Shown here piece after piece: positions 1-61,558 of a stretch of 64,000 nucleotides of DNA; within the stretch, counting starts at the first letter, position 1, and every line of letters starts with the position of its first letter. This stretch comes from an uncultured Cellvibrionales bacterium (GTDB lineage: Bacteria; Pseudomonadota; Gammaproteobacteria; Pseudomonadales; Cellvibrionaceae). Under the pieces are notes generated by a model. It saw nothing but the letters and a program-made list of their open reading frames with translations, ran no database searches and was not told the origin of the DNA. Location of the stretch: the NCBI GenBank assembly GCA_913050115.1, contig CAJWZU010000007.1, positions 1 through 64,000 on the forward strand. Direction: 5' to 3'. A program made the translations under genes and the position numbers.

Positions 1-444
1 CAGCCACTGGCCTACAACAAAGACAATCAAGAGGACAAAGAGCCGCTGTTTGATTCGATCGACACCGTGCGCGACAGTCTACGCGCATTTGCCGATATGA
101 TTCCGGCGATAACCTCGAAAAAAGACAGCATGTTTGAAGCAGCTAAGCGCGGTTTCTCGACCGCTACCGATCTGGCCGATTACTTAGTTCGCCAGGGCAT
201 GCCATTTCGCGATGCCCACGAGGTGGTGGGAAAATCAGTGGCCCACGGTTTGAATACCGGCAAAGATCTGTCCGAAATGACGCTGGAAGAATTGCAGCAG
301 TTCTCTGGCACTATTCAGCAAGATGTTTTTGAAGTACTCAAATTGGAAGGCTCAGTGGCCGCTCGCGATCACATCGGTGGCACTGCACCCAATCAGGTTC
401 GCGCCGCAGTAATACGTGCCAAGGCGCATTTACAAACGCGCTAG
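1..444 (+). CDS. argH: argininosuccinate lyase, C-terminal part (5' end outside window)
   Basis: The frame is open from base 1 and stops at TAG 442-444, giving 147 residues. The first residues read [16 protein letters not shown], the conserved segment of argininosuccinate lyases within the fumarase/aspartase superfamily. The rest is the helical C-terminal domain that ends the family. The enzyme splits argininosuccinate into arginine and fumarate, the last step of arginine synthesis, in the cytoplasm; argB of the same pathway lies at 33.1 kb. An internal GTG at 67 is not the start, because homology continues upstream of it. No terminator-like hairpin is evident just after the stop. Confidence 0.95.
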
Positions 445-767
445 TATTCACAACGAGTTAATAAAGAGGCAGAGTAGTTAGGGTTACGGAGGTTAGTTTA
501 ACTGTCCAAGCGTATGCTACTCTGACACCAGCGGTGCTGAGAGTGATGCTAGATATGGTGATTGAGAAGTGCCTTATGCTTAAGTGTTTCGATAGAACAA
601 ATCGTTATTGATAAGCGCTACACCATAATAAAGCTAACTAGCAACGGGCCAATCAACGACTACTATTAGAATTAAGGTAGTGTGTTTGTCACTTCTGGGC
701 ACATGCGCTCTTCAGAATCTAACAATAGCGAGGTATAACGGGCCAAAATTGGTCTCTAAAACACGCG
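445..767. other. intergenic stretch, no gene seen
   Basis: These 323 bases between argH and the hybrid kinase hold no open frame with protein-like character on either strand and no strong hairpin. They probably carry the promoter of the kinase gene, but I cannot point to convincing -35/-10 boxes. Confidence 0.5.
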
Positions 768-3461: not shown

Positions 3462-3554
3462 TGGTCATAACCTAATCGTCGCTAACTGGGAGCAATTGAC
3501 GGTGCATTATTACGCTGTATGGGCTCGCAAATAGCCGTAATTAAAAAACTGTTT

Positions 3555-3695
3555 TTAACGATAATATTTACCCAGATTTTGATCGTAAAAACTTATGCTG
3601 CTTTGCTGTTCCAGTTCCATAGACACATAGCCATTGCTGCCTAAAATCTCTGCGGCGACAGCAGTTAAACCCTCTGTTACCGGCAATATTGGTCC
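3555..3695 (-). pseudogene. possible 3' remnant of an unidentified gene
   Basis: Within the 512-base gap between the hybrid kinase and lptM, the minus strand has 46 codons without a start codon, bounded by an upstream TAA. The peptide looks protein-like, with segments VTEGLTAVAAEILG and MELEQQSSISFYDQ and an end at YYR-stop. The place matches where cyaY (frataxin) lies leftward next to lptM in related genomes (established synteny), but the peptide does not look like CyaY. I do not recognise it. The rest of the gap (3462-3554, 3696-3973) has no gene; a 9-base inverted repeat lies at 3765-3788. Confidence 0.25.
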
Positions 3696-3764
3696 TTAAT
3701 TTTTAACTATGAGTAACCATGTCCTCACCTCGATTACGCAACATTTGAGCTAATCGCCAGAGGG

Positions 3765-3788
3765 TATACAACATACTCTTGTTGTATA
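3765..3788. repeat. perfect 9-base inverted repeat upstream of lptM
   Basis: TATACAACA, six bases, then TGTTGTATA. It lies about 190 bases before lptM and has no T-run, so it is more like an operator or a weak hairpin than a terminator. Function unknown. Confidence 0.4.
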
Positions 3789-3973
3789 GTCATTTTTAAT
3801 CTCAGCCAGTGCTCGGCAGGCATTAGCAATTACTGCCATGTGCAAATTCTTCACTGCCCTCAAATTTAAAAATGAACTTAAACAACTGCTTAACAGGGCC
3901 TTCAAAGCCGTGTAATAGCGCGCGGCCAAGGTTATACTGACGGCCATTTAAGCGAACATTTCGAGCCCTAATC

Positions 3974-4189
3974 ATGAAATCATTTACCGCCACCGCTTAC
4001 CGCACCACTATTGTGCTTGCCGCGATCATCTTACTGGCGGCCTGCGGCCAGAAAGGCCCGCTCTATTTACCACAGAGTGATCACCAGAACGACAGCCCGG
4101 CTCAAGAGCAGAGCGAAGCTCAGCCCGCAGTCTCTGCAGTCGTAAATGAGATACAGCCAGCTACACCCGTAGCCAACACCAATATTTAA
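3974..4189 (+). CDS. lptM: small outer-membrane lipoprotein, LptM (YifL) type
   Basis: A 71-residue lipoprotein. Its hydrophobic signal ends in the lipobox LLAAC, followed at once by GQKGPLYLP, the signature of the LptM/YifL family. In E. coli LptM helps the LPS translocon LptD-LptE mature (established for the family). The tail is low-complexity, rich in Q, E, P and A, as is usual. It stands 19 bases upstream of lysA, as in many gammaproteobacteria, which supports the call and suggests co-transcription with lysA-dapF. Confidence 0.88.
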   Translation: MKSFTATAYRTTIVLAAIILLAACGQKGPLYLPQSDHQNDSPAQEQSEAQPAVSAVVNEIQPATPVANTNI

Positions 4190-4208
4190 AATATTTTTGA
4201 GAGTTAAC

Positions 4209-5468
4209 ATGAGTCAATTTACTCGCAACGCCAGTGGCCAACTCTGCGCTGAGCAACTGCCTCTGGCCGATATTGCAGCTGCCTGTGACACGCCCACCTA
4301 TGTCTACAGCAGCAAAGCTTTTAGCCAACATTTTCACAGTTACCAAGATGCATTGGGCAAGCACCCCAGCATGATCTGCTATGCGGTGAAGGCAAACTCC
4401 AATATCGCCGTGTTGGGCCTGTTGGCCAAACTAGGTGCCGGTTTTGACATAGTCTCCATGGGCGAGTTAGAGCGCGTACTGTACGCCGGAGGCTGCCCCG
4501 CCAAAATCGTATTCTCCGGCGTGGGTAAAACCCGTGCAGAGATGATTCGCGCGCTAGATGTGGGCGTACACTGTTTTAATGTCGAATCGGAACAGGAGCT
4601 GGAGCTACTGGCCCGAGTCGCCAGTGATGAAGGCAAAGTCGCCAATGTCTCGATTCGGGTCAACCCCGATGTCGACGCCAACACTCACCCGTATATATCT
4701 ACCGGACTGAAAGAAAATAAGTTCGGTGTCGATATTGCGCGCGCGCATTTGGTTTACGCTCGCGCCGCCGAACTGCCGAGCCTTAGCATACAGGGTATCG
4801 ACTGCCATATTGGTTCACAGCTAACGGAATTGACACCGTTTCTCGACGCCCTCGATCGCGTTCTGTTATTGGTTGACCAACTGGCCGAGCAGGGCATAAC
4901 AATCGCGCACTTAGATCTCGGCGGCGGTCTCGGCGTAACGTATGATGACGAGACACCACCACCGGTAGCCGATTACATAGCCGCCATTAAAACCAAGCTG
5001 GGCCAGCGCCCGCTAAGTTTGATTTTTGAACCGGGCCGTTCCATTGCCGCTAACGCCGGCGTACTGCTGACCAAGGTCGAATTTTTGAAGCCGACCGAAC
5101 ACAAGAACTTCGCTATTGTCAGCGCGGCTATGAACGACAACATCCGCCCAGCGCTTTATCAGGCCTGGCAGGATGTGCAGCCACTCAGCGTCAACACCTC
5201 GGTTCCAAGCAAGCTCTGGGACCTAGTTGGCCCTATCTGCGAGACTGGTGATTTCCTCGCCAAAGATCGCCAGCTGGCTCTTGCCGCGGGTGACCTCTTG
5301 GCGCTGATGTCATCCGGTGCCTACGGCTTTACCATGAGCTCCAACTATAATAGTCGCGGCCGTGCCTGCGAGGTGATGGTCGATGGTGACCAGTTCCATA
5401 TCATTCGTCAGCGTGAAACCTTCGAAGACTTAATTCGCGGCGAACAACTGCTGCCAGAAGGCTCCTAA
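4209..5468 (+). CDS. lysA: diaminopimelate decarboxylase
   Basis: A 419-residue PLP enzyme of fold type III. It removes CO2 from meso-diaminopimelate to give lysine, the last step of that pathway. The PLP-binding lysine sits in CYAVKANSN. The glycine-rich phosphate-binding segment [11 protein letters not shown], the EPGRS motif, CETGDFLA and the closing [14 protein letters not shown] are all present. ATG 4209 is preferred over an in-frame TTG at 4197: MSQF starts where the family starts, and GAG at 4201 can act as a ribosome site. It is followed after four bases by dapF, whose product makes its substrate, so the two form one operon. Confidence 0.97.
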
Positions 5469-5472
5469 CAAC

Positions 5473-6303
5473 ATGCGCCTGCGCTTTAGCAAAATGCACG
5501 GCCTCGGCAACGATTTTGTTGTTATCGATGGCATCAACCAGCGCGTTCGTCTATCGCCCGATAAAGTGCGACGTATTGCCGATCGCCATATCGGTATCGG
5601 TTGTGACCAGCTGCTGCTGGTAGAAAAACCGACGAGTTCTGATGTCGATTTCCGCTATCGTATCTTTAATTGCGACGGTTCAGAGGTTGAGAACTGCGGC
5701 AACGGTGCTCGCTGCTTCGCTATATTTGTGCGCGAGAATAAGCTTACTGGCCGCAGCCGTATCAAGGTTGAAACTGCCACCGGTATTTTAGAATTGATCA
5801 TCAAAGACGATGGTCAGGTCACTGTCGATATGGGCGCGCCTCAACTAGACCCCGCCAGCCTGCCTTTTATAGCCCCTAAACAGGCTAACAACTATAAACT
5901 GGAATTAGACGGCCAGATGATTGAGGTGGGGGCCGTATCCATGGGCAATCCCCATGCGGTAACGCTGGTAGATTGTGTGACCTCGGCTCCGGTGGCCATT
6001 ATGGGGCCTCTAATAGAAGCTCATCCGCGCTTCCCCAAGCGCGTCAATGCCGGCTTTATGCAAGTGTTGAATCGCGGCGAAGTCAACCTGCGCGTATTTG
6101 AGCGCGGCGTGGGCGAAACCCAAGCCTGCGGTACCGGAGCTTGTGGCGCAGTGGTCAGTGGGCGCGTGCAGGGTTTGTTAGACTCGACCGTGAAAGTCAA
6201 CCTTCCCGGTGGTAGTCTCAGTATTACCTGGCAGGGCCCGGGCGAGCCGGTGCTTATGACTGGGCCGGCAACGACTGTATTTCATGGTCAGATCAAAATT
6301 TGA
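5473..6303 (+). CDS. dapF: diaminopimelate epimerase
   Basis: A 276-residue cofactor-independent racemase that turns LL- into meso-diaminopimelate, used for lysine and for peptidoglycan. It starts with the family signature [13 protein letters not shown]. The two catalytic cysteines lie in NCGNGARC and ACGTGACGA. Length equals that of E. coli DapF. It follows lysA by four bases. The stop codon is buried in an 11-base-pair hairpin (6280-6311), and the last residues HGQIKI are echoed just downstream as HGQINI (about 6324-6340), a possible small duplication of the gene end. Confidence 0.97.
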
Positions 6304-6311
6304 CCATGAAA
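6280..6311. repeat. 11-bp inverted repeat spanning the dapF stop codon
   Basis: TTTCATGGTCA, ten bases, then TGACCATGAAA form a perfect stem that contains the dapF TGA. A second perfect hairpin, GGAAAATC-TTT-GATTTTCC, lies at 6347-6365. Neither is followed by a clean T-run. They may stabilise the lysA-dapF mRNA end or act as weak terminators before the DUF484 gene. Confidence 0.55.
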
Positions 6312-6409
6312 ACCATAAAGAATCATGGACAGATCAATATAAACGCGGAAAATCTTTGATTTTCCATTCCTTTATTCAAGGATCTTTTTAGGGAATCGGG
6401 TACAACAGC

Positions 6410-7102
6410 ATGAGCGATATAAAATCAGTGGCAACCACCCTCGATGACAATCAAGTAGCAGCCTACTTGCGCGACAACCCGCAATTTTTTATCAATCACG
6501 GCGGCCTTTTAGCGGATCTAAGCCTGCCTCATGAGAGCGGCGATGCCATCTCGCTAATTGAGCGGCAGGTATCGGTATTGCGCGAGCGCAATATGGATAT
6601 GCGACATCGACTCAGCAGCTTGCTCGACAACGCCCGCGACAATGATAAGTTATTCGAGCACACCAAACGCCTAGTGCTGGCACTACTTGAAGCTCGCGAT
6701 TTAGGCGACGGGGTCGATGCGCTGCGCTTCAGCTTCGACAACGAATTCAAGATCCAGCACACCAGTTTGATCTTCTTGGGCGACGCCAGCCGCATTCCGG
6801 GCAGCGAGGCCCGCGTGGTCTCCCCCACCGAAGCGCGCTGCCATATAGGCTCGCTGATGAAAAATAACCGCGCCTTTTGCGGCAAAATGAGTGACGACGA
6901 ACTGACTTTCTTGTTCGGCGACAAAGCCGCCAGTGCAATTGGCTCTGTCGCGTGTGTACCACTTATTCACGGTACTACCTTTGGTTTGCTGGCCATCGCA
7001 AATAAAGACACCAACTACTATCGCTCTAGCATGGGCACTCTGTTCTTGAGCTACATCGCCGAAGTACTCAATAGAACGCTGCCACCACATATGAAGTTCT
7101 AA
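6410..7102 (+). CDS. DUF484 family protein (GAF-like)
   Basis: A 230-residue cytosolic protein of the DUF484 family, found between dapF and xerC in many gammaproteobacteria. The N-terminal DNQVAAYLRDNPQFFINHG is the family hallmark. A short coiled coil (about residues 45-90, IERQVSVLRERN) leads to a GAF-like fold (about 95-225). The biochemical role is not established. Its constant position next to xerC suggests a link to chromosome dimer resolution or cell division, which is only inference. Confidence 0.9.
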   Translation: MSDIKSVATTLDDNQVAAYLRDNPQFFINHGGLLADLSLPHESGDAISLIERQVSVLRERNMDMRHRLSSLLDNARDNDKLFEHTKRLVLALLEARDLGDGVDALRFSFDNEFKIQHTSLIFLGDASRIPGSEARVVSPTEARCHIGSLMKNNRAFCGKMSDDELTFLFGDKAASAIGSVACVPLIHGTTFGLLAIANKDTNYYRSSMGTLFLSYIAEVLNRTLPPHMKF

Positions 7103-7172
7103 CTTAAAATGCGGTTCTTTAATCGCCAAAACATGGCCGCCACGGCGGACACGTATTTGAGGAGTCCGGTAT

Positions 7173-7209
7173 CTCACATACACTCATTCTGTGCGTGAGC
7201 GGCTTTTTT
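7173..7209 (+). terminator. possible terminator after the DUF484 gene
   Basis: CTCACATAC pairs imperfectly with GTGCGTGAG, and six T residues follow after CGGC. It lies between the DUF484 gene and xerC, so xerC may have its own promoter or depend on read-through. Confidence 0.35.
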
Positions 7210-7212
7210 GCT

Positions 7213-7242
7213 GACACGCTAAAAGCACTTTTTTAGCGTGTC
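7213..7242 (+). promoter_or_regulatory. 12-bp perfect hairpin just before the xerC start
   Basis: GACACGCTAAAA, loop GCACTT, TTTTAGCGTGTC. It ends three bases before the GTG start at 7246 and covers the place where a ribosome binding site should be. It has no T-run beyond the stem. Translational control of xerC is an inference. Confidence 0.5.
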
Positions 7243-7245
7243 CCT

Positions 7246-8181
7246 GTGAGCGAAAATACACCAGCGCCGCCGCTGCCGTTTTCGGAGCAGATAGAGGCCT
7301 TCACACGCTACCTACAAACCGAGTTGCAGTTATCGCCGCGCACGCTAGATGCCTATTTGCGCGACCTCAACAAGTTTCGGCTCTTTTGTCAGCAAGCCAA
7401 TATTGATGACTTATCGACATTGCGCGCCCGCCAAGTGCGCGATAGCCTCGCTCAATTGCATCGTCGCGGCATGGGGGGGCGCAGCTTGCAGCGCTGGCTG
7501 TCGAGCCTGCGAAAATTCTTTCAATTCGCCCTTAATAGTGGCGCTATGCAACAAAATCCGGCCTTAATTGTGCGCGCCCCCAAGTCGGAAAAAAAGCTGC
7601 CTAAGGCGCTCGATGCCGATCTAACTGGTCAATTTGTCAGTCAGCCCAACCGCGCAGAAACCTTTATAACCGCCCGCGACAGAGCTATGTTAGAGCTGAT
7701 GTACTCCTCTGGCTTGCGCCTGTCTGAAGTAGTGGCTGTCGACACCGATAGTTTTAACAGCGACAGCACTGTCACCGTGCTTGGCAAGGGCCGCAAGCAG
7801 CGCGTACTGCCGGTTGGTCGCCACGCCCAAGCGGCTCTTCAGCTATGGTTAGACTATCGCGTAGATGCCGGCCCAAACAGAGAACAAAAAGCACTGTTTA
7901 TCAGTCAACAGGGCACTCGCTTAGGGGCTCGCGCAGTACAGATGCGCTTTCAAAAGTTGAGTCTAACGCTGGGCGTACCGGTTAATCCACATATGCTGCG
8001 CCATTCCTTTGCCAGCCATATACTGGAGAGCAGTGGCGACTTACGCGCGGTACAAGAACTGCTCGGCCACGCTCATATTGCCACCACTCAGGTGTATACA
8101 CATTTGGATTTTCAGCACTTAGCCAAGGTTTACGACAGCGCACACCCACGGGCCTACCTCGATAAGGACGATAAATCATGA
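7246..8181 (+). CDS. xerC: tyrosine recombinase XerC
   Basis: A 311-residue site-specific recombinase that works with XerD at dif to resolve chromosome dimers. An N-terminal SAM-like core-binding domain (FTRYLQTELQLSPRTLDAY, residues 13-100) precedes the catalytic domain. It holds Arg in SGLRLSEV, Lys in GKGRKQR, HMLRHSFASH, the second His in LGHAHIATTQ and the nucleophile Tyr in VYTHLDF. It fits XerC rather than XerD by its place after dapF-DUF484. GTG 7246 is chosen by alignment with the family N-terminus. No ordinary ribosome site is seen, because a strong hairpin covers that position. The stop overlaps the next ATG. Confidence 0.94.
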   Translation: MSENTPAPPLPFSEQIEAFTRYLQTELQLSPRTLDAYLRDLNKFRLFCQQANIDDLSTLRARQVRDSLAQLHRRGMGGRSLQRWLSSLRKFFQFALNSGAMQQNPALIVRAPKSEKKLPKALDADLTGQFVSQPNRAETFITARDRAMLELMYSSGLRLSEVVAVDTDSFNSDSTVTVLGKGRKQRVLPVGRHAQAALQLWLDYRVDAGPNREQKALFISQQGTRLGARAVQMRFQKLSLTLGVPVNPHMLRHSFASHILESSGDLRAVQELLGHAHIATTQVYTHLDFQHLAKVYDSAHPRAYLDKDDKS

Positions 8182-8372
8182 AAAATATCACACTAATAAT
8201 TTGCTTAGCGGCCATCACACTCACCGGCTGCGGTAAGAGCGAGCCCATAGCAAAAGATGAATTGATCATAAAGCATCAAATTCAGGCGCTGGAAAAAGCC
8301 AATCAGGTTGAGGGTTTGCTAAAGCAGGCAGAACAAGAGCGCCGCCAGCAAATGGATGAGAGCGGTATTTAA
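8178..8372 (+). CDS. small lipoprotein
   Basis: A 64-residue protein with a signal peptide ending in the lipobox LTGC at about residues 15-18, then an amphipathic, charged, probably helical tail rich in E, Q and K (ALEKANQVEGLLKQAEQERR). Its ATG overlaps the xerC stop (ATGA), so it is translationally coupled to xerC. I do not recognise the family. In related genomes this slot usually holds a HAD phosphatase gene, which is missing here. The stop codon lies in a 21-base palindrome. Confidence 0.75.
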   Translation: MKNITLIICLAAITLTGCGKSEPIAKDELIIKHQIQALEKANQVEGLLKQAEQERRQQMDESGI

Positions 8373-8381
8373 AATACCGCT
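8361..8381. repeat. 21-base palindrome over the lipoprotein stop
   Basis: AGCGGTATTT and AAATACCGCT flank a single base and include the TAA of the preceding gene. It may act as an mRNA 3'-end hairpin. There is no T-run. Confidence 0.45.
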
Positions 8382-8538
8382 GCAACTTTACACGAGCAGT
8401 GGTGCTGCCCTCTAGCGAGGCAAAAGCCGACGCAAAAAGGGCGTTAGCCTACATTGAGTATATCCCGATTAGGAACTCAGCAACGGTCAGCGCCATTAGC
8501 GACGCTGCCAGAGGGCAATAGAACAATCCTGTAATGCC

Positions 8539-8832
8539 TCAGATAGGGCGTGAACCGTAGCTGGCTCCTGGCTTGGTGTCTTGTTCAGCTGTCACATGCG
8601 GGGCTATCTGGCTGATGCAGCCACCATGGGATAAATAATTCTCGATCTGATCGTGAACCTGGTCATGAATAAGACGGCGCGAGCTAACGCTGCGGTCCTC
8701 GGCGTGATCATCTTTCGAGCCAAAGAAACTCTTTTCGGCCGCCGCGATTTTATCGACTGGCTTCTTTATAGCCTTCTTCTTAGTCGTTTTTTTCTTTACG
8801 ATGGTTTTCTTGACCGCTACTGCATTAACCAT
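8539..8832 (-). CDS. sutA: SutA-like RNA polymerase accessory protein
   Basis: A 97-residue protein. Its second half, IENYLSHGGCISQIAPHV, and its terminus ASYGSRPI match the conserved half of SutA, which in Pseudomonas ends in KYGSRPI. SutA binds RNA polymerase and helps transcription in slow-growing cells (established in P. aeruginosa). The site near glnK/amtB and ubiK also agrees. Odd feature: SutA of Pseudomonas has a long acidic disordered N-tail (from memory), whereas here residues 8-28 are strongly basic (VKKTIVKKKTTKKKAIKK). A GGTG ribosome site precedes ATG 8832. Confidence 0.78.
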   Translation of the reverse strand: MVNAVAVKKTIVKKKTTKKKAIKKPVDKIAAAEKSFFGSKDDHAEDRSVSSRRLIHDQVHDQIENYLSHGGCISQIAPHVTAEQDTKPGASYGSRPI

Positions 8833-9004
8833 AAATTCACCACAATTCCGTTGTAGATGTCTCTGCTAAGACTATTAAAGTAGAGTTTTCTATTGCAATA
8901 CTATTTTATAGCTCAGAATTTTTAACAGCACCGCTATTAACAGTAAATTTCTTAGGTTGATTTGGTCTGAATAGCTCTTTTTTAAATTGAAATGCTATAT
9001 AACC

Positions 9005-9034
9005 AAAAAAGCCTCATCCGAAGATGAGGCTTTT
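9005..9034 (-). terminator. rho-independent terminator of the amtB-glnK operon
   Basis: On the minus strand GCCTCATC, loop TTCG, GATGAGGC and then six T. It lies about 135 bases past the glnK stop. The remainder of 8833-9168 has no gene and should hold the sutA promoter. Confidence 0.88.
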
Positions 9035-9168
9035 AACGCCCAAGAAGTACACATACCGCGGAAAATATCGCCACATAAATGTGGCTTACTAGAATACCGA
9101 CAGTAGGCGCCTTAGGCGACGCAGGAGCAGTTATCGAGGAGTCCGAGAGCTGCTGGCTTGAACCGAAT

Positions 9169-9564
<396 letters not shown>

Positions 9565-9639
9565 TTAAAGATACACGCGGCACACCGTTTGGGCAATGCC
9601 GCAATTTGAGCTTGATCAGCTCGATAATCGTTACATCGA

Positions 9640-10881
9640 TTACTTGTTGGTGAACTCTGGGTAAGCTTCCATACCGCATTCGGCAAGGTCGACACCAACG
9701 TACTCTTCCTCTTCGCTAACGCGAATACCGATAGTGTACTTAAGCGCCAACCAAACGATTGAGCTGGTCACAAATACCCAACCGAAGATGGTTAGCGCAC
9801 CAATGATTTGGCCGCTGAAAGATGAGCCTTCAGGGTTAGTCAAAGGAACCACCAATAAACCAAATAGACCGACAACACCGTGCACCGAGATGGCGCCGAC
9901 AGGGTCATCCAACTTGACTTTATCGAGAGCCAAAATAGAAAAGACCACGATAACACCACCCGCCACACCAATTAAGGTCGCTTGAAGTGCCGTAGGGGTA
10001 GAGGGTTCAGCGGTAATCGCCACTAGACCCGCCAAAGCGCCATTTAGCGCCATAGTTAAATCGGCTTTGCCGAACATTATGCGCGCCAGTAACAGCGCGG
10101 CAATCAAGCCACCGGCCGCGGCCGCGTTAGTATTCATAAAGACAACCGCAACACTATTGGCACTCTCAACACTGGCCATGGCCAATACAGAGCCACCGTT
10201 AAAGCCAAACCAGCCCATCCATAAGATGAAGGTACCCAAAGTCGCCAGTGGCATATTACAGCCTGGTATCGGATTAATAGAGCCGTCTTTTCCATATTTA
10301 CCTTTGCGTGCACCGAGAAAAATTACTGCAGACAGAGCGGCGGCTGCACCAGCCATGTGCACAATACCGGAACCGGCAAAATCGGAGAAACCGAGGTCGC
10401 CCAGAGTGTAGAGGCCAAAAACAGAGGCGCCGCCCCAGGTCCATGAGCCTTCCATCGGGTAGATAAACCCGGTCATCACCACAGCAAAAGCCAAAAATGC
10501 CCAAAGTTTCATGCGCTCAGCTACGGCGCCAGATACGATCGACATAGCGGTGGCCACAAACACTACCTGAAAGAAGAAATCGGCTGACGGCGCGTAAGTC
10601 GCTGGTTCTTCAGCTCCGGTAAAACCGTCGCCCGTAATACCGCTAAGCAGTGCACTACCAAGCTCGGTGTACATAATGGCATAGCCGCAAATCATATACA
10701 TCGTGCAAGAGACTGCATACAAGGCGATGTTCTTAGTCAAAATTTCAGTGGTGTTCTTAGAGCGAACTAGACCCGCTTCCAGCATAGAGAAGCCAGCAGC
10801 CATCCACATTACCAGCGCGCCACAGACCAAAAAATAAAAGGTGTCCAGTGCGTACTGCAACTGGGCTATATCGTTTTCCAT
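9640..10881 (-). CDS. amtB: ammonium transporter
   Basis: A 413-residue inner-membrane channel with about eleven hydrophobic helices. Family marks are DFAGSGIVHMAGAAAAL (first pore histidine and the conserved Asp), the second pore histidine in AISVHGVVGLFGLL, and the FILWMGWFGFNGGS segment. The N-terminus MENDIAQLQYALDTFYFLVC has no cleavable signal. GGAG stands seven bases before the ATG. It sits between the torF-like porin gene and glnK in one leftward operon, and GlnK is its regulator. Confidence 0.95.
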   Translation of the reverse strand: MENDIAQLQYALDTFYFLVCGALVMWMAAGFSMLEAGLVRSKNTTEILTKNIALYAVSCTMYMICGYAIMYTELGSALLSGITGDGFTGAEEPATYAPSADFFFQVVFVATAMSIVSGAVAERMKLWAFLAFAVVMTGFIYPMEGSWTWGGASVFGLYTLGDLGFSDFAGSGIVHMAGAAAALSAVIFLGARKGKYGKDGSINPIPGCNMPLATLGTFILWMGWFGFNGGSVLAMASVESANSVAVVFMNTNAAAAGGLIAALLLARIMFGKADLTMALNGALAGLVAITAEPSTPTALQATLIGVAGGVIVVFSILALDKVKLDDPVGAISVHGVVGLFGLLVVPLTNPEGSSFSGQIIGALTIFGWVFVTSSIVWLALKYTIGIRVSEEEEYVGVDLAECGMEAYPEFTNK

Positions 10882-28190: not shown

Positions 28191-28530
28191 TTAGAGAAGT
28201 CCGCATTCAGCAAACGAAACCACCTCGCCATCACCGACAATCATGTGGTCCAGCACTTGTGTCTCAACTAAAGCCAATGCGTTTACTAATCTTTTAGTGA
28301 TGTGTTTATCGGCATTTAATAGCTCGGCTACACCAGATGCAAAAATAGATTAGTTGTGCATCAAAGTAATCCGCGCTCAGCAAATGAAACCACCTCGCCA
28401 TCACCAACAATCATGTGGTCCAGCACTTGTATCTCAACTAAAGCCAATGCGTTTACTAATCTTTTAGTGATGTGCTTATCGGCATTTAATAGCTTGGCTA
28501 CACCAGATGCAAAAATAGATTAGTTGTGCA
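28191..28530 (-). repeat. two extra copies of the radC 3' end, 170-base period
   Basis: The last part of radC (SGVAE onward to the stop) is repeated twice downstream of the real stop. Copies span 28191-28360 and 28361-28530, and the coding copy begins at 28531. The period is exactly 170 bases with no indels. The copy next to radC is almost identical to it. The distal copy has drifted: its tail reads FAECGLL in place of FAERGLL, and VETQVL in place of VEIQVL. Both keep the reading frame but lack a start codon. Each copy joins to the next through an AT-rich linker containing GATGCA-N15-TGCATC. The stretch 27907-28190 holds no gene and should carry the rpmB promoter. Confidence 0.95.
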
Positions 28531-29205
28531 TCAAAGTAATCCGCGCTCAGCAAATGAAACCACCTCGCCATCACCAACAATCATGTGGTCCAGCACTTGT
28601 ATCTCAACTAAAGCCAATGCGTTTACTAATCTTTTAGTGATGTGTTTATCGGCGTCTGATGGCTCGGCTACACCCGACGGATGGTTGTGACATAAGATCA
28701 ATGCTGAGGCATTTAAAGCCAGTGCTTTTTTCACCACTTCACGTGGATAGACACTAGCACCGGCAATGCTGCCAAAAAATAACTCTTCATAGCTCAGCAG
28801 GTGGTTTTTACTGTCTAAAAAAAGACCGACAAAAACTTCCTGCTGGCGATGACGCAACTGTGAAGTTAGATAATCGCGCACCAGATCGGGACTATCGAGC
28901 AACGGGGTTTGCTCAAGCACCTCTTGCAAATGCCGGCGACTCATCTCCAACACAGCCTGCAGCTGACAGAACTTGGCATCGCCCAAGCCTTTGGCAGCGC
29001 AGAAGTTATCCCGCCCCGCCTGCAACATCAGCCGCAAACTACCAAAAGTTGAAAGCAGGTCGCGCGCCAAATCGACCGCGGACTTGCCGGCTATACCGGT
29101 ACGCAAGAAAATTGCCAGCAATTCAGCGTCCGACAGGGCCCCGGGACCTCGGGCCAGTAGCTTTTCTCGCGGCCGCTCCGCCGCTGGCCAGTGACTAATC
29201 GACAT
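28531..29205 (-). CDS. radC: RadC family JAB-domain protein
   Basis: A 224-residue protein. An N-terminal helix-hairpin-helix part (residues 1-85, [19 protein letters not shown]) precedes the JAB/MPN metalloprotease-like domain with [15 protein letters not shown], the HxH-S-D metal-binding set. The old link to repair in E. coli is disputed and the true role is unknown. Divergent from coaBC. Its 3' end has been copied in tandem downstream; the real stop TGA (28531-28533) lies at the junction with the first extra copy. Confidence 0.93.
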
Positions 29206-37844: not shown

Positions 37845-38117
37845 GAGAATACCTTTTAAATAACAAATGGAGTTTAAAGGCGATTATACGTTAAGCCTAT
37901 GACCTTGTCGGGCTTGACTCGTAGTCATATGGGATAATCGTTTCGCAACGGCAGTTACGACACCAAAAGCCACTTAACCAGTCTACATATTGATGAACAG
38001 CAAAAAAACCACCAAAATCGAGCTTATCAGAACAAAGTATCATTACGCTCGGCACACGCCCTTAATGAACCTCTGCTAAGATTATCAAACTTATTTAAAC
38101 GCCCTCTGGATATACTT

Positions 38118-39002
38118 ATGCCACTCAGCATGACAGGTTTCGCTCGTATCGAAGCTCCGCTAACCAGCGCCGATGGTAAAAATTGGGGAACTTTTTGCTG
38201 GGAAATACGCAGCGTTAACCACCGGTATATCGAAACGCACTTTCGTCTACCCGAACACTTGCGCGAACTGGAACCACAGCTGCGCGAACGTCTGCGTACA
38301 ACACTGGCACGGGGCAAACTCGATATTGCCTTGCACCTACACATAGATAGCGCCAGCGCCGATACACTCAGCATTAATGGAGCTTTAGTCTCGCAACTGG
38401 TCAGCGCCTTACAACAAATAGAAGATCAATTGCCCAGTGCCGCCCCCATCAACGCACTCGACATTCTCAAATGGACTGGCGTAGCCCAAAAACGAGACCT
38501 AGACCGCAACCAAGTGTTAACTCAAACGCTGCAAAAATTCGATGCAGCCATCGAGCAGTTACTAGAAAACCGAGCGCGCGAAGGACAAGAATTAGCCCAA
38601 TTGATCGAACAGCGTCTAGTCGCCATAAGTATTCAAGTGACCAATGTTCGCACGGCCATGCCGAAAATAATTCAAGCCCAGCGCGATAGGCTAATCGCCA
38701 AAGTAGCCGCTTTACAAGTTGAATTAGACGATGACCGAGTCGAGCAAGAAATTGTACTGTTAGCGCAAAAAGCTGATGTCGATGAGGAGCTTGATCGCCT
38801 CGACACGCATATCATCGAGGTGCGTCGTACTCTTAAACAATCGGGCAGCATTGGTCGCCGCTTAGACTTCTTAATGCAGGAGCTCAATCGTGAAGCCAAC
38901 ACCCTGTCGTCCAAATCAATTGTTAGTGAAACCACACTGGCGGCGGTGGATTTAAAGGTTCTTATTGAGCAAATGCGCGAGCAGATCCAGAATATAGAGT
39001 AG
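38118..39002 (+). CDS. yicC: YicC family endoribonuclease-like protein (intact copy)
   Basis: A 294-residue protein with the YicC N-terminal domain (MPLSMTGFARIE, WEIRSVNHRYIETHFRLP) and the C-terminal DUF1732 domain (GRRLDFLMQELNREANTLSSKS). YicC of E. coli acts in RNA turnover (established for the family). It stands after rph, its usual neighbour, but its other usual neighbour gmk is 6 kb away. The gap holds an AT-rich island and a decayed second copy of this gene. Confidence 0.95.
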   Translation: MPLSMTGFARIEAPLTSADGKNWGTFCWEIRSVNHRYIETHFRLPEHLRELEPQLRERLRTTLARGKLDIALHLHIDSASADTLSINGALVSQLVSALQQIEDQLPSAAPINALDILKWTGVAQKRDLDRNQVLTQTLQKFDAAIEQLLENRAREGQELAQLIEQRLVAISIQVTNVRTAMPKIIQAQRDRLIAKVAALQVELDDDRVEQEIVLLAQKADVDEELDRLDTHIIEVRRTLKQSGSIGRRLDFLMQELNREANTLSSKSIVSETTLAAVDLKVLIEQMREQIQNIE

Positions 39003-42049: not shown

Positions 42050-43305
42050 AAGATCTCCATCAGTCACCTCATCTAAGGATGCAAAAGGTATACCAAAAAA
42101 AAAATACTAATTAAGCGATCTTTATGGCGTATTGCAAGTAATTATAAAGAGCCTAATTATTCTGCGTGGCAAAATGCAAAATAATCGTTTTTTAAGCCTA
42201 ATTTTATGGAATATAAAAAATGAGTGAGGGTTTTGACATAGAAAGGGGGTTTAAACACTGTTGCACATATTTTCACAACATAGTTAATATGTGGCTGACG
42301 CACAGAAAAAACACTGTAATTTTTCGATAATCAATTCAAGGCGATAGCTGTTGCTCTAGCGAACACTCCCAATGCCTTCGCCCCGATTGTAACGGGGGCT
42401 CTAGGTACCTATAAGGCTATGTTATATCGTTAATTAATTGAGGTACGGCGAAGTGTAATCATAACTATCAAATGAAATTATAAAATAAAATAGCGCTAAA
42501 GGAGCGGCGCAAACTAAATCACACATGCGCTTAGCTTAAAGAAGAGAATGAGATCTAAAAAAAAGTTGGAATGGTACATATCCCAACAGAGGGTCTGTGG
42601 GGGCCTCGGCCCGATCCGAGCTAAAATCCCCAAAAACTCAAACTTTATCAGCACTAAAAAGCGGCTGGGAATTTCAATCGATTTACTAAACAGCTACGGT
42701 ACGGCAGCACAACAAATGAAGGATCCAATAGAGAAAATCCTACTTGTGTAGTCATTACTGACTTTTTTAGTTAAAAAATATAAAGATAACAACCCCAAGT
42801 ATCCGCCATTTCATTTAATCAACTACTTTAAGTTAGTCGATTAGGCGGGCCGCTGCATTTGCGCTAACAAGCTTGGAGCTAATGAGCCCTGTATTTTAAA
42901 CCGACTCGTACTTGTACCACAACAATAACTGCAAGCCACTATCGGTATTGGTCGCTCTTACACCTGCTGTGTTCGCGACACTTGTGATACCAGCAATACA
43001 GCGCCATTTCTACAAAGCTACTAGAACGACTAGCGCACTGAAACACCTCGTTGAAATTCAACACAGCACTAGCTTTAAGGTAAGTGTATCTACCTGCAGC
43101 TCTGTAGCCAATAAAACCTACACGTAGTACAGCCAAATAAATAATCCCTATCGGAAATTCAAGTTTTCAGACGCTTTTACGCTAATATATTAAAATTCAA
43201 CATCACAAATCTGCTATCATTTAGCTTAATAAATTATCGGCTGGCTATATTGCAATTTATGACCGTCCTATTCTTATCGGTTTATAGCCCTTTGTGGATA
43301 TTTTT
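42050..43305. other. 1.25-kb AT-rich gap between the glycosyltransferase and the decayed yicC
   Basis: No gene is supported. A 67-codon frame at 42548-42751 has a weak ribosome site (AAGAAGAGA) but no recognisable content. Two short overlapping frames near 42.9-43.1 kb also look accidental. A hairpin GCCCCGATTGTAACGGGGGC lies at about 42380-42400. No transposase, integrase or terminal inverted repeat is seen. The left part should carry the promoter of the glycosyltransferase operon. Confidence 0.45.
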
Positions 43306-44159
43306 ATGCCGCTTAACATGGCCGCTTTCGCCAATATCGTAGCTCCGCTAGTCAGTACCAACTGGCAAAAACTCGGGAATTTTTTGCTGGGAGATACGCA
43401 GCGTTAACCATCGCTATATCGAAACGCACTTTCATCTGCCCAACCACCTGCGCAAAAGATTGGCACGCGGCAAATTTGATATTGCCCTATACTTACTGGC
43501 AAATGGTGGCAACACTGACGTACTCAGTATTAACCGAGTCTTAGTCTCGAAGATGGTCAGCGCCATTAATCAAATAGTAGACCAACTGCGCAGTGCAGCC
43601 CGAATCAACGCACTCGACATCCTAAAATGGATTGGCGTAGTGCAAAAGCAAGCCCTAGATCGTAGCCAAGTGTTAACTCAAACGCTGCAAAAAATCGATA
43701 CTGCCATCGAGCAGTTGCTAGAAAACCGAGCACGCAAAGGACAAGAGTTGGCCCAATTAATCGAACAGCGTCTAGTCGCCATCAGTATTCAAGTGGCCAA
43801 TGTTCGCGCCGCCACGCCGAAAATCATTCAGCTCCAGCGCGCTAGGCTGATCGCCAAAATAGCCGTATTACAGGTTAAACTAGACAGCGACCGACTCGAG
43901 CAAGAAATCGTACTGTTACCGCAAACAACCGATGTCGATAAATCGCTCGATCGCCTCGATACTCGTGTCTTCGAGGTGCGCCGTCCCCTTAAGCAATCGG
44001 GCTCTCGGGTGCCACCTAGAATTCTTGATGCAAGTACTCAATCGGGAGGCCAACACTCTGTCGTCTAAAGCGACTATCACTAAAACCATACTGGTAACGG
44101 TGGACTTAAAAGTACACATTGAGCAAATGCGCGAGCAGATCCAGAATATTCAACAATAA
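43306..44159 (+). pseudogene. decayed second copy of yicC
   Basis: It aligns with the intact yicC (38118-39002) from the ATG and about 20 bases upstream (GCCCT-TGTGGATATTTTTATGCC) to the last codons (MREQIQNI). Damage is clear: a frameshift near 43350-43400; a deletion of about a dozen codons where the intact gene has ELEPQLRERLRTT; another frameshift near 44005 in the conserved SGSIGRRLDFLMQ segment; and many substitutions. Its middle part still forms a 202-codon frame. It lies on the gmk side, where yicC normally sits, so the ancestral neighbour of gmk may be the broken copy. Confidence 0.93.
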
Positions 44160-45878: not shown

Positions 45879-46145
45879 ATGGCACGTATCACTGTTGAAG
45901 ACTGTCTAAACCATGTTGATAACCGTTTTGAACTGGTTCTTGTCGGCAGCAAACGCGCTCGCCAACTCGCCGTCGGCGGTAAGGAACCTCTGGTTCCCGC
46001 TGAAAACGACAAGCCGACCGTGATCGCTCTGCGCGAAATCGAAGAGGGTTTGATCGACGCCAGCATCCTCACCCAGAAGGATGACGAAGAAGAGCTGGAA
46101 TTCGTACTCGATATTGATGCGGCGTCTGTTCCACTTCAGGATTAA
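45879..46145 (+). CDS. rpoZ: RNA polymerase omega subunit
   Basis: An 88-residue subunit starting [20 protein letters not shown], with [14 protein letters not shown] and [10 protein letters not shown]. It helps RNA polymerase assembly and forms a ppGpp site with beta-prime (established), fitting its place before spoT. The long frame opens at 45777, but homology starts at ATG 45879. A hairpin follows the stop. Confidence 0.97.
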
Positions 46146-46150
46146 TAACT

Positions 46151-46182
46151 AGCCCTCGGTTCTATAACTGAGGGCTAATTTT
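46151..46182 (+). terminator. hairpin between rpoZ and spoT
   Basis: AGCCCTC and GAGGGCT with inner GTT/AAC pairing, then AATTTT. It could be a partial terminator or attenuator in the rpoZ-spoT operon. Confidence 0.6.
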
Positions 46183-46199
46183 CTGCAAAGGAGAAGAGA

Positions 46200-46451
46200 T
46201 TGCAGACTTTTGATGCACTGATTAATGCGCGTATCTGCCATCTCCAGCAAGACCCGATTACTCTCTTCAAGCGTGCCTTTTATTGCGCCGATAAAACCCA
46301 GGCTGAAGTCTCCTACCGTCATACTTCAGCCCTGAACCCCCTAGTCTCATCGTATCTACAGCCCAAAGATATTAACCTCGTTAAGCGCGCTTATTACGCT
46401 AAGCAATCGCTGCAGACTAGCCCGCATGGGGAACTCTCTTGCAGACCATAG
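46200..46451 (+). CDS. 83-codon frame made of two degenerate SpoT N-terminal modules
   Basis: From TTG 46200 the frame reads LQTFDALINARICHLQQDPITLFKRAFYCADKTQ when aligned without gaps to the first 34 residues of SpoT; only parts of it are clearly conserved (LQT, AL, KRA, I-L). A second module follows: SSYLQP-x-x-INLVKRAY from about 46329. The ribosome site AAAGGAG stands right before TTG 46200, better than the site before the real spoT. The frame stops 13 bases inside spoT, so translation could be coupled. Homology holds at protein level in frame through both copies. It may be a mini-protein, a leader frame, or only a duplication relic that has kept its frame. Confidence 0.5.
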   Translation: MQTFDALINARICHLQQDPITLFKRAFYCADKTQAEVSYRHTSALNPLVSSYLQPKDINLVKRAYYAKQSLQTSPHGELSCRP

Positions 46452-48553
46452 AAGCCCTGAGCCACCGTCTCTCATCTTACTTGCAGCCCGAGCAAATCAA
46501 CCTCGTTAAGCGTGCTTACTTCTTCGCCGAGCAAGCCCACGATGGGCAAATGCGGCGCAGCGGCGAAGCTTATATCACCCATCCTCTAGCAGTTGCCCAT
46601 ATTCTAGCCACCATGCACCTAGATCATCAAAGCTTGATGGCGGCCATGCTGCACGATGTTATCGAAGACACTCCCGTCGCTAAAAGTTCGCTCGCCGAGC
46701 AGTTTGGCGACACCGTGGCCGAGTTAGTGGACGGCGTCAGCAAGCTGACACAGATGAATTTTGAAACGCAGGCCGAAAAACAGGCGGAAAACTTTCAGAA
46801 GATGGCACTAGCCATGGCCCGTGACATTCGGGTGATTTTAGTAAAGCTGGCCGACCGCTTACACAATATGCGCACTCTGGGTGTAATGCCGGCCGAAAAG
46901 AAACGCCGCATCGCCAAGGAAACTCTAGAGATTTACGCGCCTATTGCCCACCGCTTAGGCATGAACGATATGCGTCTGGAGTTCGAAGATCGCGGCTTTT
47001 ATGCGATGTATCCCTTGCGGGCCACTCGTTTGCAAGCAGCACTAAAAACGGCGCGCGGCAACCGTAAAGAGCTGGTCGAAAAAATTCAGGGGGCGATAGA
47101 GAAACGACTCGACCACGAAAAGATACTAACGCTAGTGGTTGGTCGCGAAAAACATATCTACAGCATCTATCAAAAGATGCGCAGCAAGAAAAAATTCTTT
47201 AAAGAGATTATGGATGTCTATGCCTTTCGCATTATTGTAGAAGACATTGACACCTGCTACCGCGTGCTGGGCTCTATTCACAACTTATATAAGCCTGTTG
47301 TTAGCGAGTTTAAAGACTATATCGCCATCCCCAAGGCCAACGGCTATCAGTCGCTCCACACGATCTTGGTGGGTATGCATGGCGTGCCGATTGAAGTGCA
47401 AATACGCACCAAAGAAATGGACGAAATGGCCAACAGCGGGATTGCCGCGCATTTTCTCTATAAGTCCGATAACGATGAGCCCCTGGGCAGCACGCATTTA
47501 CGCGCGCGCGAGTGGATAAAAGGTCTACTGGAAATGCAGCAACACGCCGGTGACCCCTTGGAGTTTATCGAAAACGTTAAAATTGACCTATTTCCCGACG
47601 AAGTCTACGTATTTACCCCCAAAGGCAGAATTGTTGAGCTTTCAGGTGGCGCCACTGCAGTCGATTTCGCCTACGCAGTCCATACCGATATCGGCAACAC
47701 CTGCGTCGCTTGTCGCATCAACGGCCGTATTGCACCGCTGTCACAGTCACTAGAAAGCGGCCAAAAAGTGAGCATTATTACCGCCGATAATGGCCAGCCC
47801 AACCCCCATTGGCTCAACTTTGTCTCCTCCGGCAAAGCTCGCAGCGCCATTCGCCATTTCTTGAAGAGTCAGCGTCACCACGAGTCCATCGCCCTCGGGC
47901 GCCGCATGCTCGGTAAGGCACTGGCTGATTTCCATATCAATATCGACGAAATTAGCGACGAACAACAACAGACGCTCATCGACAAGAGTGGCGCCAGTAG
48001 CTTCGAGCGCTTGCTAGAAGAAATTGGCCTCGGTAGTCGTATCGCCTACGCCGTGGCTCGATTACTGCAAACAGACGTTAGTACCAATGCCAATAGCCGC
48101 AACATTTATAGCCCGCTGACCATCGAGTCAGCTGACAGCATGATGATCAGTTTCGCACGCTGCTGCCGACCGATTCCCGGCGACCCAATTATCGGCCACA
48201 TTAGCACCGGCAAAGGCTTGGTGGTGCATTTGGATAGCTGCAACAATATCGACGACCAGCGACACAAACCCGAGAATATCAATCAGGTTAACTGGGCACA
48301 GATAGTCACCGGTGAATTCCCTGTGGATATCTTAGTCGAGGTCGAATCGGAGCGCGGCATTGTTGCCAGCCTAGCCAACCGCATCACCGAGCAGAGCGCC
48401 AATATTGAAAACATTAATGTCGACGAGCGCGACGCCCATAACAGCGTGATCAAACTTTGCATCGGCGTTACCAACCGCGTTCACCTCGCCCACATCATGC
48501 GTCGTATTAAAGCCATGCACGCTGTGATTAAGGTAACCCGAGCCCGCAATTAA
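46439..48553 (+). CDS. spoT: bifunctional (p)ppGpp synthetase/hydrolase SpoT
   Basis: A 704-residue Rel-family enzyme. The hydrolase HD domain (about 20-170) has AMLHDVIEDT and VKLADRLHNMRTL. The synthetase domain (about 230-340) has KFFKEIMDVYAFRII and EFKDYIAIPKANGYQSLHT. A TGS domain (about 385-450, VYVFTPKGRIVEL) and a C-terminal ACT domain (about 630-704) follow. The start is TTG 46439 with GGGGA ahead of it. Two degraded copies of its first codons lie upstream, so the present start may be secondary to an older one at 46200. Gene order rpoZ-spoT-ridA is conserved. Confidence 0.95.
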   Translation: MQTIEALSHRLSSYLQPEQINLVKRAYFFAEQAHDGQMRRSGEAYITHPLAVAHILATMHLDHQSLMAAMLHDVIEDTPVAKSSLAEQFGDTVAELVDGVSKLTQMNFETQAEKQAENFQKMALAMARDIRVILVKLADRLHNMRTLGVMPAEKKRRIAKETLEIYAPIAHRLGMNDMRLEFEDRGFYAMYPLRATRLQAALKTARGNRKELVEKIQGAIEKRLDHEKILTLVVGREKHIYSIYQKMRSKKKFFKEIMDVYAFRIIVEDIDTCYRVLGSIHNLYKPVVSEFKDYIAIPKANGYQSLHTILVGMHGVPIEVQIRTKEMDEMANSGIAAHFLYKSDNDEPLGSTHLRAREWIKGLLEMQQHAGDPLEFIENVKIDLFPDEVYVFTPKGRIVELSGGATAVDFAYAVHTDIGNTCVACRINGRIAPLSQSLESGQKVSIITADNGQPNPHWLNFVSSGKARSAIRHFLKSQRHHESIALGRRMLGKALADFHINIDEISDEQQQTLIDKSGASSFERLLEEIGLGSRIAYAVARLLQTDVSTNANSRNIYSPLTIESADSMMISFARCCRPIPGDPIIGHISTGKGLVVHLDSCNNIDDQRHKPENINQVNWAQIVTGEFPVDILVEVESERGIVASLANRITEQSANIENINVDERDAHNSVIKLCIGVTNRVHLAHIMRRIKAMHAVIKVTRARN

Positions 48554-54712: not shown

Positions 54713-55609
54713 GTGCCCGTCAAATTATCCCCCACACAAGTGACTGCTATAAAAAGCCGCTTGACTGCTTACTCACAGTTGATGCGATTAGATCGCCCCA
54801 TAGGCACTTTACTGGTGCTCTGGCCCACGCTGTGGAGTTTGTGGATTGCCGCAGCCGGTATCCCCAGCATCAAAAACCTTATTATTTTCAGTCTCGGTAC
54901 TTTTTTAATGCGCTCGGCCGGCTGTGTTATCAATGACTTTGCTGACCGCAAAATTGACGGACAGGTTAGCCGCACCAAAAATCGTCCGCTAGTAACTGGG
55001 GCAGCCAAGCCCATCGAGGCCATAGCGCTGTTTTTCGGCTTGTGTTTATTAGCGTTTGTACTGGTACTTTTCACCAACACCCTCACCATTCAATTATCTT
55101 TTGCGGCCGTGGCGCTGGCGTTTTGCTACCCCTTTATGAAGCGCTTCACCTTTCTGCCGCAAGTGGTGCTGGGTATGGCCTTTGCTATGAGCGTGCCCAT
55201 GGCTTTTGCCGCTGAAAGTGGCGAACTGAATAACAGTATCTGGCTGATCTACACCGCTGTAGTACTGTGGACCGTGGCCTATGACACTTTCTACGCTATG
55301 GTTGACCGCAACGATGACCTTAAGATTGGGGTTAAGTCGACCGCGATATTATTTGGCGCTATGGACAAAGCCATATGCGCCAGCCTGCAGGTTATGGTGC
55401 TATTGGCACTACTACTGGCGGGCAATAAATTTGAACTCGGTATTCTCTATCAATTCGGAGTGTTAGCCGCTGCAGCACTGTTTGGCTGGCAGCAGTATTT
55501 AATTCGGCACCGAGAGCGCGAAGCCTGTTTCGTTGCTTTTTTGAATAATAATTGGGTTGGGACAGTGATTTTTGCCGGCATTGCTGCGCATTATGTGATT
55601 ACAACCTAA
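54713..55609 (+). CDS. ubiA: 4-hydroxybenzoate octaprenyltransferase
   Basis: A 298-residue inner-membrane prenyltransferase with about eight or nine helices. The two Asp-rich metal-diphosphate sites are [12 protein letters not shown] and [14 protein letters not shown]. It joins a polyprenyl chain to 4-hydroxybenzoate made by UbiC. The start is GTG 54713. A 29-base piece of its 3' part (55518-55546) recurs downstream at 55641-55669 with one mismatch. Confidence 0.95.
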
Positions 55610-55640
55610 GCGAGGATAAGAATCTCCACCGTCTGTCAAT

Positions 55641-55669
55641 GCGAAGCCTGTTTCGTCGCTTTTTTGAAT
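55641..55669 (+). repeat. 29-base echo of the ubiA 3' end
   Basis: GCGAAGCCTGTTTCGTCGCTTTTTTGAAT repeats bases 55518-55546 inside ubiA (codons for EACFVAFLN) with one T-to-C difference. It lies 32 bases past the ubiA stop. Confidence 0.85.
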
Positions 55670-55690
55670 TATTTAACAATAGCTCAATAG

Positions 55691-60557: not shown

Positions 60558-60781
60558 CTAAGCTTCCAGCCTCCGTCAATGGGTTCTGAATGAAGATATT
60601 AAGAGCGGCGCCATTAATCCGTTTGACTAAGCTTCCAGCCTACGAGTAAAAACTATCTCCTTCGCAGTCGACAGCTCGGCACTGTAACCATAACCGCCGA
60701 GATCGAAGCCTTGTAGCTGCTCAACCTCCGTCAATGGGTTCTGAATGAAGATATTAAGAGCGGCGCCATTAATCCGTTTGA
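60558..60781 (-). repeat. two extra copies of the yaaA 3' end, 155-base period
   Basis: The copy at 60627-60781 repeats the last roughly 100 coding bases of yaaA exactly, including the TAG, plus a linker ending in TTTGAC. The second copy (60558-60626) is the same unit with 86 bases lost between CCAGCC and CTCCGTC, a deletion at short homology. Stops lie at 60782, 60627 and 60558. The block 60572-60735 appears identical to 60727-60890. The unit boundary is near CGCCATTAATCCG, which is also found inside yaaA. Confidence 0.95.
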
Positions 60782-61558
60782 CTAAGCTTCCAGCCTACGA
60801 GTAAAAACTATCTCCTTCGCAGTCGACAGCTCGGCACTGTAACCATAACCGCCGAGATCGAAGCCTTGTAGCTGCTCAACCTCCGTCAATTGGTTCTGGA
60901 TAATATAACGCGCCATTAATCCGCGGGCTTTTTTAGCGTAGAAGCTGATGATTTTGTACTTGTCTGTCTTCCAGTCCTTAAACACCGGCGTGATGATATC
61001 GGCTTTAAGCTGCTTAGGTTTTACCGACTTAAAGTACTCGTTAGAGGCGAGGTTCACTAAGGTCTGCGTGTTAGCCTTTTGCAACTGCTGATTAAGCGCG
61101 TCAGTAATGCGCTCACCCCAAAACTCATACAAATTTTTACCGCCGGCATTCGGAAATTTAGTGCCCATTTCCAGTCGATAAGCCTGCATTAAATCCAGTG
61201 GCCGCAGCAGGCCATAGAGTCCGGACAGAATACGCAGGTGTTGCTGAGCAAAGGTAAAGTCGGCTTTTGAAAAACTTCCGGCATCGAGTCCAGTGTAAAC
61301 ATCGCCGTTAAAGGCCAGCACTGCTTGCTTGGCATTATCGTGGCTAAACGGCTGCGACCAGTCCTGAAAGCGGTCGTAGTTGAGCTGGCCGAGCTTGTCG
61401 CTCAACTTCATCAGCGCTGAGACATCATGCGGAGCCAACGGCCGCAGCTGCTCAATTAACTGTTGCGCCTGCGCCAACATCGTCGGCTGAGTTGAGGTCT
61501 TAGTGGTCGGAGCAGTTTCATAATCGAGATTTTTAGCGGGGGAAATCACGAGCAACAT
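60782..61558 (-). CDS. yaaA: peroxide stress protein YaaA (DUF328/UPF0246)
   Basis: A 258-residue protein, the same length as E. coli YaaA. In E. coli it lowers free iron during peroxide stress and is under OxyR (established there); an oxyR gene is at 50.2 kb. It has [74 protein letters not shown] and [15 protein letters not shown] 61558 is the family start. Its 3' end has been copied in tandem directly downstream. Confidence 0.94.

Follow-up and report, generated by a model that had tools for sequence, protein, structure and literature searches.

The rpoZ-spoT intergenic region

We analysed a window of 64,000 nucleotides from the draft genome of an uncultured Cellvibrionales bacterium, in which gmk, rpoZ, spoT, a Rid-family gene, two further genes and recG follow one another in that order. 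Gene names in the window are readings of the translations, with that of spoT additionally confirmed by Pfam. The features lying between rpoZ and spoT are collected in Table 1. The hairpin downstream of rpoZ should be regarded as a mere consensus match, since shuffled sequence averages 1.1 terminator-like sites; palindromes were seen by eye at the same position in the rpoZ-spoT spacers of several relatives. No promoter-like site was found on the + strand between this hairpin and spoT, and an Rfam scan of the window gave no match at gathering score.

Table 1. Features of the rpoZ-spoT region (window coordinates; duplex energies in kcal/mol)
Feature	Position	Strand	Basis
rpoZ, gene upstream of spoT	45879..46145	+	translation
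Terminator-like hairpin 3' of rpoZ, 12 pairs, tail ATTTT	46150..46177	+	consensus match only
AAAGGAG, mini-frame ribosome site and probably that of the ancestral spoT start	46187..46193	+	duplex energy -8.7; position versus relatives
83-codon open frame (mini-frame), TTG to TAG, spanning modules 1 and 2	46200..46451	+	ORF list
Module 1, spoT copy, nt 1-106, start codon retained	46200..46305	+	score 23.5
Module 2, spoT copy, about -8 to +96, start codon gone	46305..46406	+	score 38
GGGGA, weaker ribosome site of present-day spoT	46428..46432	+	duplex energy -5.5
spoT, intact, TTG start, 704 aa; HD, RelA_SpoT, TGS and ACT domains	46439..48553	+	ORF list, Pfam

Two copies of the spoT start within one open frame

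The first-pass annotation of this DNA had described two SpoT N-terminal modules joined in a single 83-codon TTG frame, which begins behind AAAGGAG and runs 13 bases into spoT. Our alignments and coordinates bear this description out. Module 1 aligns with spoT 46439-46544, start codon on start codon, at a score attained by none of 2000 dinucleotide shuffles (shuffle maximum 18), and module 2 aligns with spoT 46431-46534, again beyond all 2000 shuffles (maximum 19) and with 77% identity across 66 nt when no gaps are allowed. The direct comparison of the two modules is weak, its score being reached by 17 of the 2000 shuffles, and each matches spoT better than it matches the other. Both are in direct orientation beside the intact gene, which gives three successive spoT 5' ends. 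The AAAGGAG motif ends six bases 5' of the mini-frame TTG, and the shared 13 bases (46439-46451) are read in different frames by the mini-frame and by spoT. In its gapped alignment module 1 contains several indels that cancel one another, so that the frame is kept. The blocks preceding the TTGs of the mini-frame and of spoT fail to align (score 5), which prevents an exact reconstruction of the duplicated unit.

The probable ancestral start of spoT

A search for relatives covered 57 other genomes, none from the window's genus; a scan of genome contigs with SpoT yielded 79 loci, the best at 77% identity and none congeneric. Spacers were compared across the 107 of 109 loci that had both an rpoZ and a spoT match, a set which includes the window's own locus and in which some genomes are counted under two locus numbers. 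The rpoZ-spoT spacer measures 293 nt in the window versus a median of 58 nt, and only two spacers are longer: one of 496 nt (L110) that reads as spoT sequence, and one of 351 nt (L020) that by eye carries no spoT-like copy. By eye, no spoT copies were seen in the rpoZ-spoT spacers of these non-congeneric relatives.

At the Marinimicrobium, Gilvimarinus and Cellvibrio loci spoT starts some 24-117 nt after rpoZ, often behind a palindrome, with GGAG-type ribosome sites and starts such as TTGCAAACC, TTGTTAACC and GTGCAAACC. The TTG of the mini-frame lies 54 nt past the rpoZ stop, roughly where relatives start spoT. The earlier description had also given the mini-frame the better ribosome site, and the anti-Shine-Dalgarno duplex energies agree: -8.7 kcal/mol for the mini-frame and -5.5 kcal/mol for spoT, against -8.3 to -10.7 kcal/mol for the spoT starts of five relatives. 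Since the spacer is long, the position is about that of the relatives' starts and the ribosome site falls within the range of these five, the mini-frame start is most simply read as the old spoT start. Judging from the anatomy of the locus, it is thus most likely that the mini-frame start and its good ribosome site are ancestral, with the present gene starting at a tandem copy further downstream. By eye, relatives' spoT starts resemble the present spoT start more than they do module 1.

The layout suggests that at least two tandem duplications of the spoT 5' end took place, with offsets of 114 and 125 nt between successive modules, which would have put 239 nt between the original and the present start. 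Such events would have spared the gene itself, since one complete copy survives a tandem duplication that spans a gene end. The old start and its ribosome site would now open a mini-frame over two decaying copies, with spoT starting downstream. With its ribosome site preserved, this start may still admit ribosomes at 46200, which would then stop at 46451, over the spoT start, while spoT would be translated from its own weaker site; some hand-over or interference between the two, through reinitiation or competition, would then be a likely by-product.

Tandem gene-end copies across the genome

Comparison of the window with itself revealed further tandem copies, these of gene 3' ends: at radC (28195-28677, period 170), at yaaA (60561-60923, period about 155) and at ubiA (55518-55672). 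By eye, the outer copies at radC and yaaA share changes that are absent from the gene copy, and later copies may derive from earlier ones. The window also holds a degenerate second copy of an apparent yicC (38094-38995 and 43281-44149; 77.6% over 905 nt); the intact gene lies 5.2 kb upstream of it, and sugar-related genes occupy the interval.

The survey was extended to 1.264 Mb of the same genome (46% of its 2.72-Mb draft of 100 contigs), with 1.2 Mb from nine relatives as control, one of these (G008) being represented by a single 20-kb stretch. Near-tandem repeats involving a spacer numbered 30 in the window's genome, or 24 after the exclusion of four matches from neighbouring paralogues or weak matches with large offset (L116, L120, L202, L210) and two at contig ends (L130, L206:1-679). 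The controls gave 2 in 400 kb of G004, none in 200 kb each of G028 and G035, and 6 in 400 kb of the other six relatives. Repeats inside a single frame were not commoner in the window's genome (14 versus 17 in the controls).

We then scored gene ends directly, counting copies with a score of at least 20 and an offset below 250 nt, a limit that was set after the matches had been seen. On this count 23 of 1993 gene ends in the window's genome, about one in a hundred, have a copy, compared with 1 of 1834 in the nine relatives and 3 of 2646 at the 79 spoT loci (pooled Fisher test against controls and spoT loci together, 7e-9). The excess is present at 5' ends (10/977 versus 1/896 in the controls, Fisher p 0.012; 2/1294 at the spoT loci) and at 3' ends (13/1016 versus 0/938, Fisher p 0.0003; 1/1352 at the spoT loci). 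With no limit on offset the figures are 26/1993, 10/1834 and 8/2646, giving p 0.018 against the controls (0.34 for 5' ends taken alone) and 0.0001 against controls and spoT loci combined. From the window's genome the limit removes one 5' match (L121 16807, the 3' copy of tex seen from the next frame) and two 3' matches (L121, L210); from the controls it removes five of six 5' and all four 3' matches (L218 five times, L156, L158, L165 and L217), and at the spoT loci it leaves two of the six 5' matches and one of the two 3' matches. Half of the ten unlimited control matches come from one 10-kb array of 267-nt repeats in L218. This array (about 70-9960, minus strand, in G028) is probably one long repeat protein gene. 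Because the contrast depends in part on the offset limit, the genome is best described as marked by short-offset copies, and not by near repeats of every kind.

The identities of the copies range from 62% to about 99%, so that the duplication process looks long-running. Tandem partial copies also adjoin or overlap RNA genes, namely those of 6S RNA, RNase P RNA and tRNA-Met (L112 10253-10949, L124 19147-19831 and L129 12903-13317). The placement at gene ends can be explained by selection, because a gene survives intact when a duplication spans its end but usually not when the duplication falls within it.

Samples of other genomes of the family, some of them small genomes, were also compared: 66 kb of G008 gave one weak match at offset 25 and 140 kb of G002 gave none. 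An 84-kb sample of G033 contained four matches, all at offset 155, and the three inspected lie across runs of N. These constant-offset repeats (L248, L249) are probably scaffolding artefacts. Loss of any of four repair genes, considered as a cause of the duplications, was set aside, given that sbcC-like, recJ, mutS and exonuclease I genes are all present. The sbcC match falls below the family cut-off in the window's genome, as it does in 13 of 14 control genomes. A short fragment of the exonuclease I C-terminal family (L256, C45:22699-22830 of the window's genome) is found on a contig other than that of the intact gene.

Gene-start copies as mini-frames and possible coupling

A start codon and an open mini-frame are retained by the copies at spoT, rapZ, rlmE, purK, ubiH, rnd, tsaC and a calcium/sodium antiporter gene, where the names purK and ubiH come from Pfam domains taken together with context, and the tsaC start is taken as the ATG at L179:7532, inside the longest frame. 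The remaining two of the ten 5'-end copies are those of rnhB, which are degenerate, and one before a gene of L199, which lacks a start. At 8 of the 10 genes the stop of the last mini-frame falls within -5 to +12 of the real start, frequently in the form ATGA, GTGA, TAATG or TAGTG. Several genes carry more than one such frame in succession: five at rlmE, three at rapZ and purK, two at ubiH, and one each at spoT, rnd, tsaC and the antiporter gene. At rlmE (L206 12400-13100, minus strand) four of the five frames have 27 codons and the stops of the later ones lie about 5 nt short of the following start, and at rapZ (L180 9400-10050, plus strand) each of the three ends as TAATG on the next start. 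The first-pass annotation had set the spoT frame apart from other gene-end copies by its kept reading frame. That contrast is valid within the window, whose other gene-end copies are of 3' ends, but it disappears against the genome's other gene-start copies: seven of the nine besides spoT in the sampled part of the genome keep open mini-frames, so the spoT mini-frame is not exceptional.

This regularity raises the question of a leader frame under selection for coupling, whereby the strong site loads ribosomes, these stop at 46451, and reinitiation at the spoT TTG sets the level of SpoT, the peptide itself being irrelevant. The frame ends within 12 nt of the spoT start and its ribosome site is the stronger of the two. 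Under a random-breakpoint model that assumes no decay, a stop in the -5 to +12 interval has a probability of 0.25-0.44 per case, and at least 8 in 10 a probability of 0.0004 to 0.024; the interval was, however, picked after the cases had been seen, and tsaC is counted by way of the ATG that we chose. The start-to-start offset equals 2 modulo 3 in six of eight genes, but this bias was noticed on the first three cases and holds in three of the five later ones. The short spacers of relatives, moreover, leave no room for such a leader.

Predicted folding of the leader cuts both ways. At the spoT start most bases are paired (mean unpaired 0.03-0.04 in long folding windows, 0.31-0.37 in short ones), and a ribosome arriving from upstream could open it. 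In the long fold the mini-frame's ribosome site, too, is mostly paired (mean unpaired 0.20, versus 0.46 for the site of spoT; 0.52 in a short folding window), so that ribosome entry at the mini-frame is not assured. Because the spoT start and the mini-frame ribosome site are both mostly paired, the folding is silent on which start is used more. Translation of the frame and its coupling to spoT are possible; that the frame has been selected as a coupled leader we entertain only tentatively. If anything is selected here it would be the position at which the frame ends, and the excess of stops at the next start hints at selection on coupling.

A broader version of this idea would have the lineage retain short tandem duplications that span gene starts, as chains of leader frames derived from the gene itself and passing ribosomes from link to link; each link would encode the gene's own N-terminus, carry a ribosome site and end on the next start. 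We consider this unlikely.

Constraint on the amino acids of the frame

The kept frame had also been read as a sign of a small protein that might bind SpoT partners. In ungapped comparison with spoT, module 1 differs at 12, 16 and 28 first, second and third codon positions, and module 2 at 4, 3 and 9. For a copy that changes freely beside a spoT confined to third-position changes, third-position differences are expected to be about twice those at each other position. In neutral simulations a third-position share as large as that observed occurs in 7-38% of runs for module 1 (tested as a share of at least 0.5) and in 25-58% for module 2. Runs that reach the count of 28 in module 1 make up 0.6-29% of the total, according to the rate assumed for spoT; under the plainest neutral model, with the same rate on both branches, 21.4 are expected (P 0.023). 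Nei-Gojobori estimates against spoT are pN 0.37 and pS 0.80 for module 1, and pN 0.14 and pS 0.55 for module 2. Simulated neutral decay leaves the frame open over 82 codons in 6-16% of cases, and random sequences of matched composition are open in 3.6%. Taken together, the differences between spoT and its modules are about those expected if only spoT is constrained, and these sequence comparisons lean towards a free copy, with weak hints to the contrary.

The other mini-frames behave similarly. Pooled over rapZ, rlmE, purK and ubiH, pN/pS between mini-frames is 0.77, and between the last mini-frame and its own gene it is 0.56 (six genes), values which indicate no clear selection on amino acids. 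For the spoT frame there was no sign of purifying selection on amino acids across the few codons compared.

A selected SpoT-like micro-protein that binds SpoT or its partners is therefore very improbable. The homology is visible at the protein level and the frame is open, but pN/pS is that of a free copy and most of the other 5'-end copies are open likewise. A Pfam search of the 83-codon frame gave no match, and on this ground a protein function was rejected as the leading explanation. Binding of SpoT partners finds no support either, because HD_4 of SpoT begins at residue 26 and the modules cover no more than the stretch leading up to the HD domain and its very beginning. An assembly artefact can be dismissed almost entirely: although the genome is a draft of 100 contigs, mis-assembly does not yield copies that differ, as these do, by 23-38% from spoT, the sampled sequence of this genome contains no N at all, and the artefacts seen in G033 look different, with their constant offset of 155 and N runs.

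Discussion

The reading that we prefer, with a probability of about 0.8, is that the 83-codon frame is a relic composed of two decayed tandem copies of spoT's own start. Several observations count against it, namely the openness of the frame, the frame-keeping indels, the third-position excess, the upstream blocks that do not align, the post hoc limit of 250 nt, the excess of stops on the next start and the paired ribosome site of the mini-frame. On this best reading the spoT case is in itself ordinary, a decaying duplicate of a gene start, yet it is part of an unusual genome-wide pattern; it would be one instance of a habit of the lineage, in which short tandem copies arise at 5' ends, at 3' ends and beside RNA genes.

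Relics of partial tandem duplication are familiar from bacterial spacers, where head-to-tail partial gene copies lie by an intact gene and decay with age. The copies described here are alike in being head-to-tail, partial, decaying and next to the intact gene. They differ in being frequent in the sampled half of a genome, at both gene ends and beside RNA genes, and in often keeping a short frame together with its start and ribosome site. A second comparison is with the translationally coupled leader frames of bacteria, which have ATGA and TAATG overlaps: they share the short frame with its own ribosome site that ends on the next start, whereas the leader here is a copy of the downstream gene's own beginning and no regulatory signal is known for it.

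Two further systems are comparable. Borg elements, which are archaeal and extrachromosomal, carry pervasive and recently formed tandem repeats in spacers and frames that are virtually absent from host genomes (PMC9879509), whereas the units here are pieces of chromosomal genes at their ends. The spacers of Buchnera hold decaying pseudogenes (PMC3164680) and are similar in containing decaying gene pieces, but these are described as pseudogenes and not as tandem end copies by intact genes. Our literature searches found no description of such a gene-end tandem-copy pattern.

These findings replace a single-gene story, that of a SpoT-like micro-protein, with a genome-wide process in one lineage, where short gene-end copies accumulate while samples of nine relatives show hardly any. 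Annotation and small-protein surveys of genomes like this one may wrongly record duplicated starts as new genes. The spoT case itself poses the question of how the gene of a stress regulator tolerates a relocated start. Duplications of differing age constitute a ready set for asking why the copies formed and whether those that stop on the next start are favoured. If the chains of leader frames were real, the number of copies and their period would act as a rapidly evolving dial on the translation of core genes.
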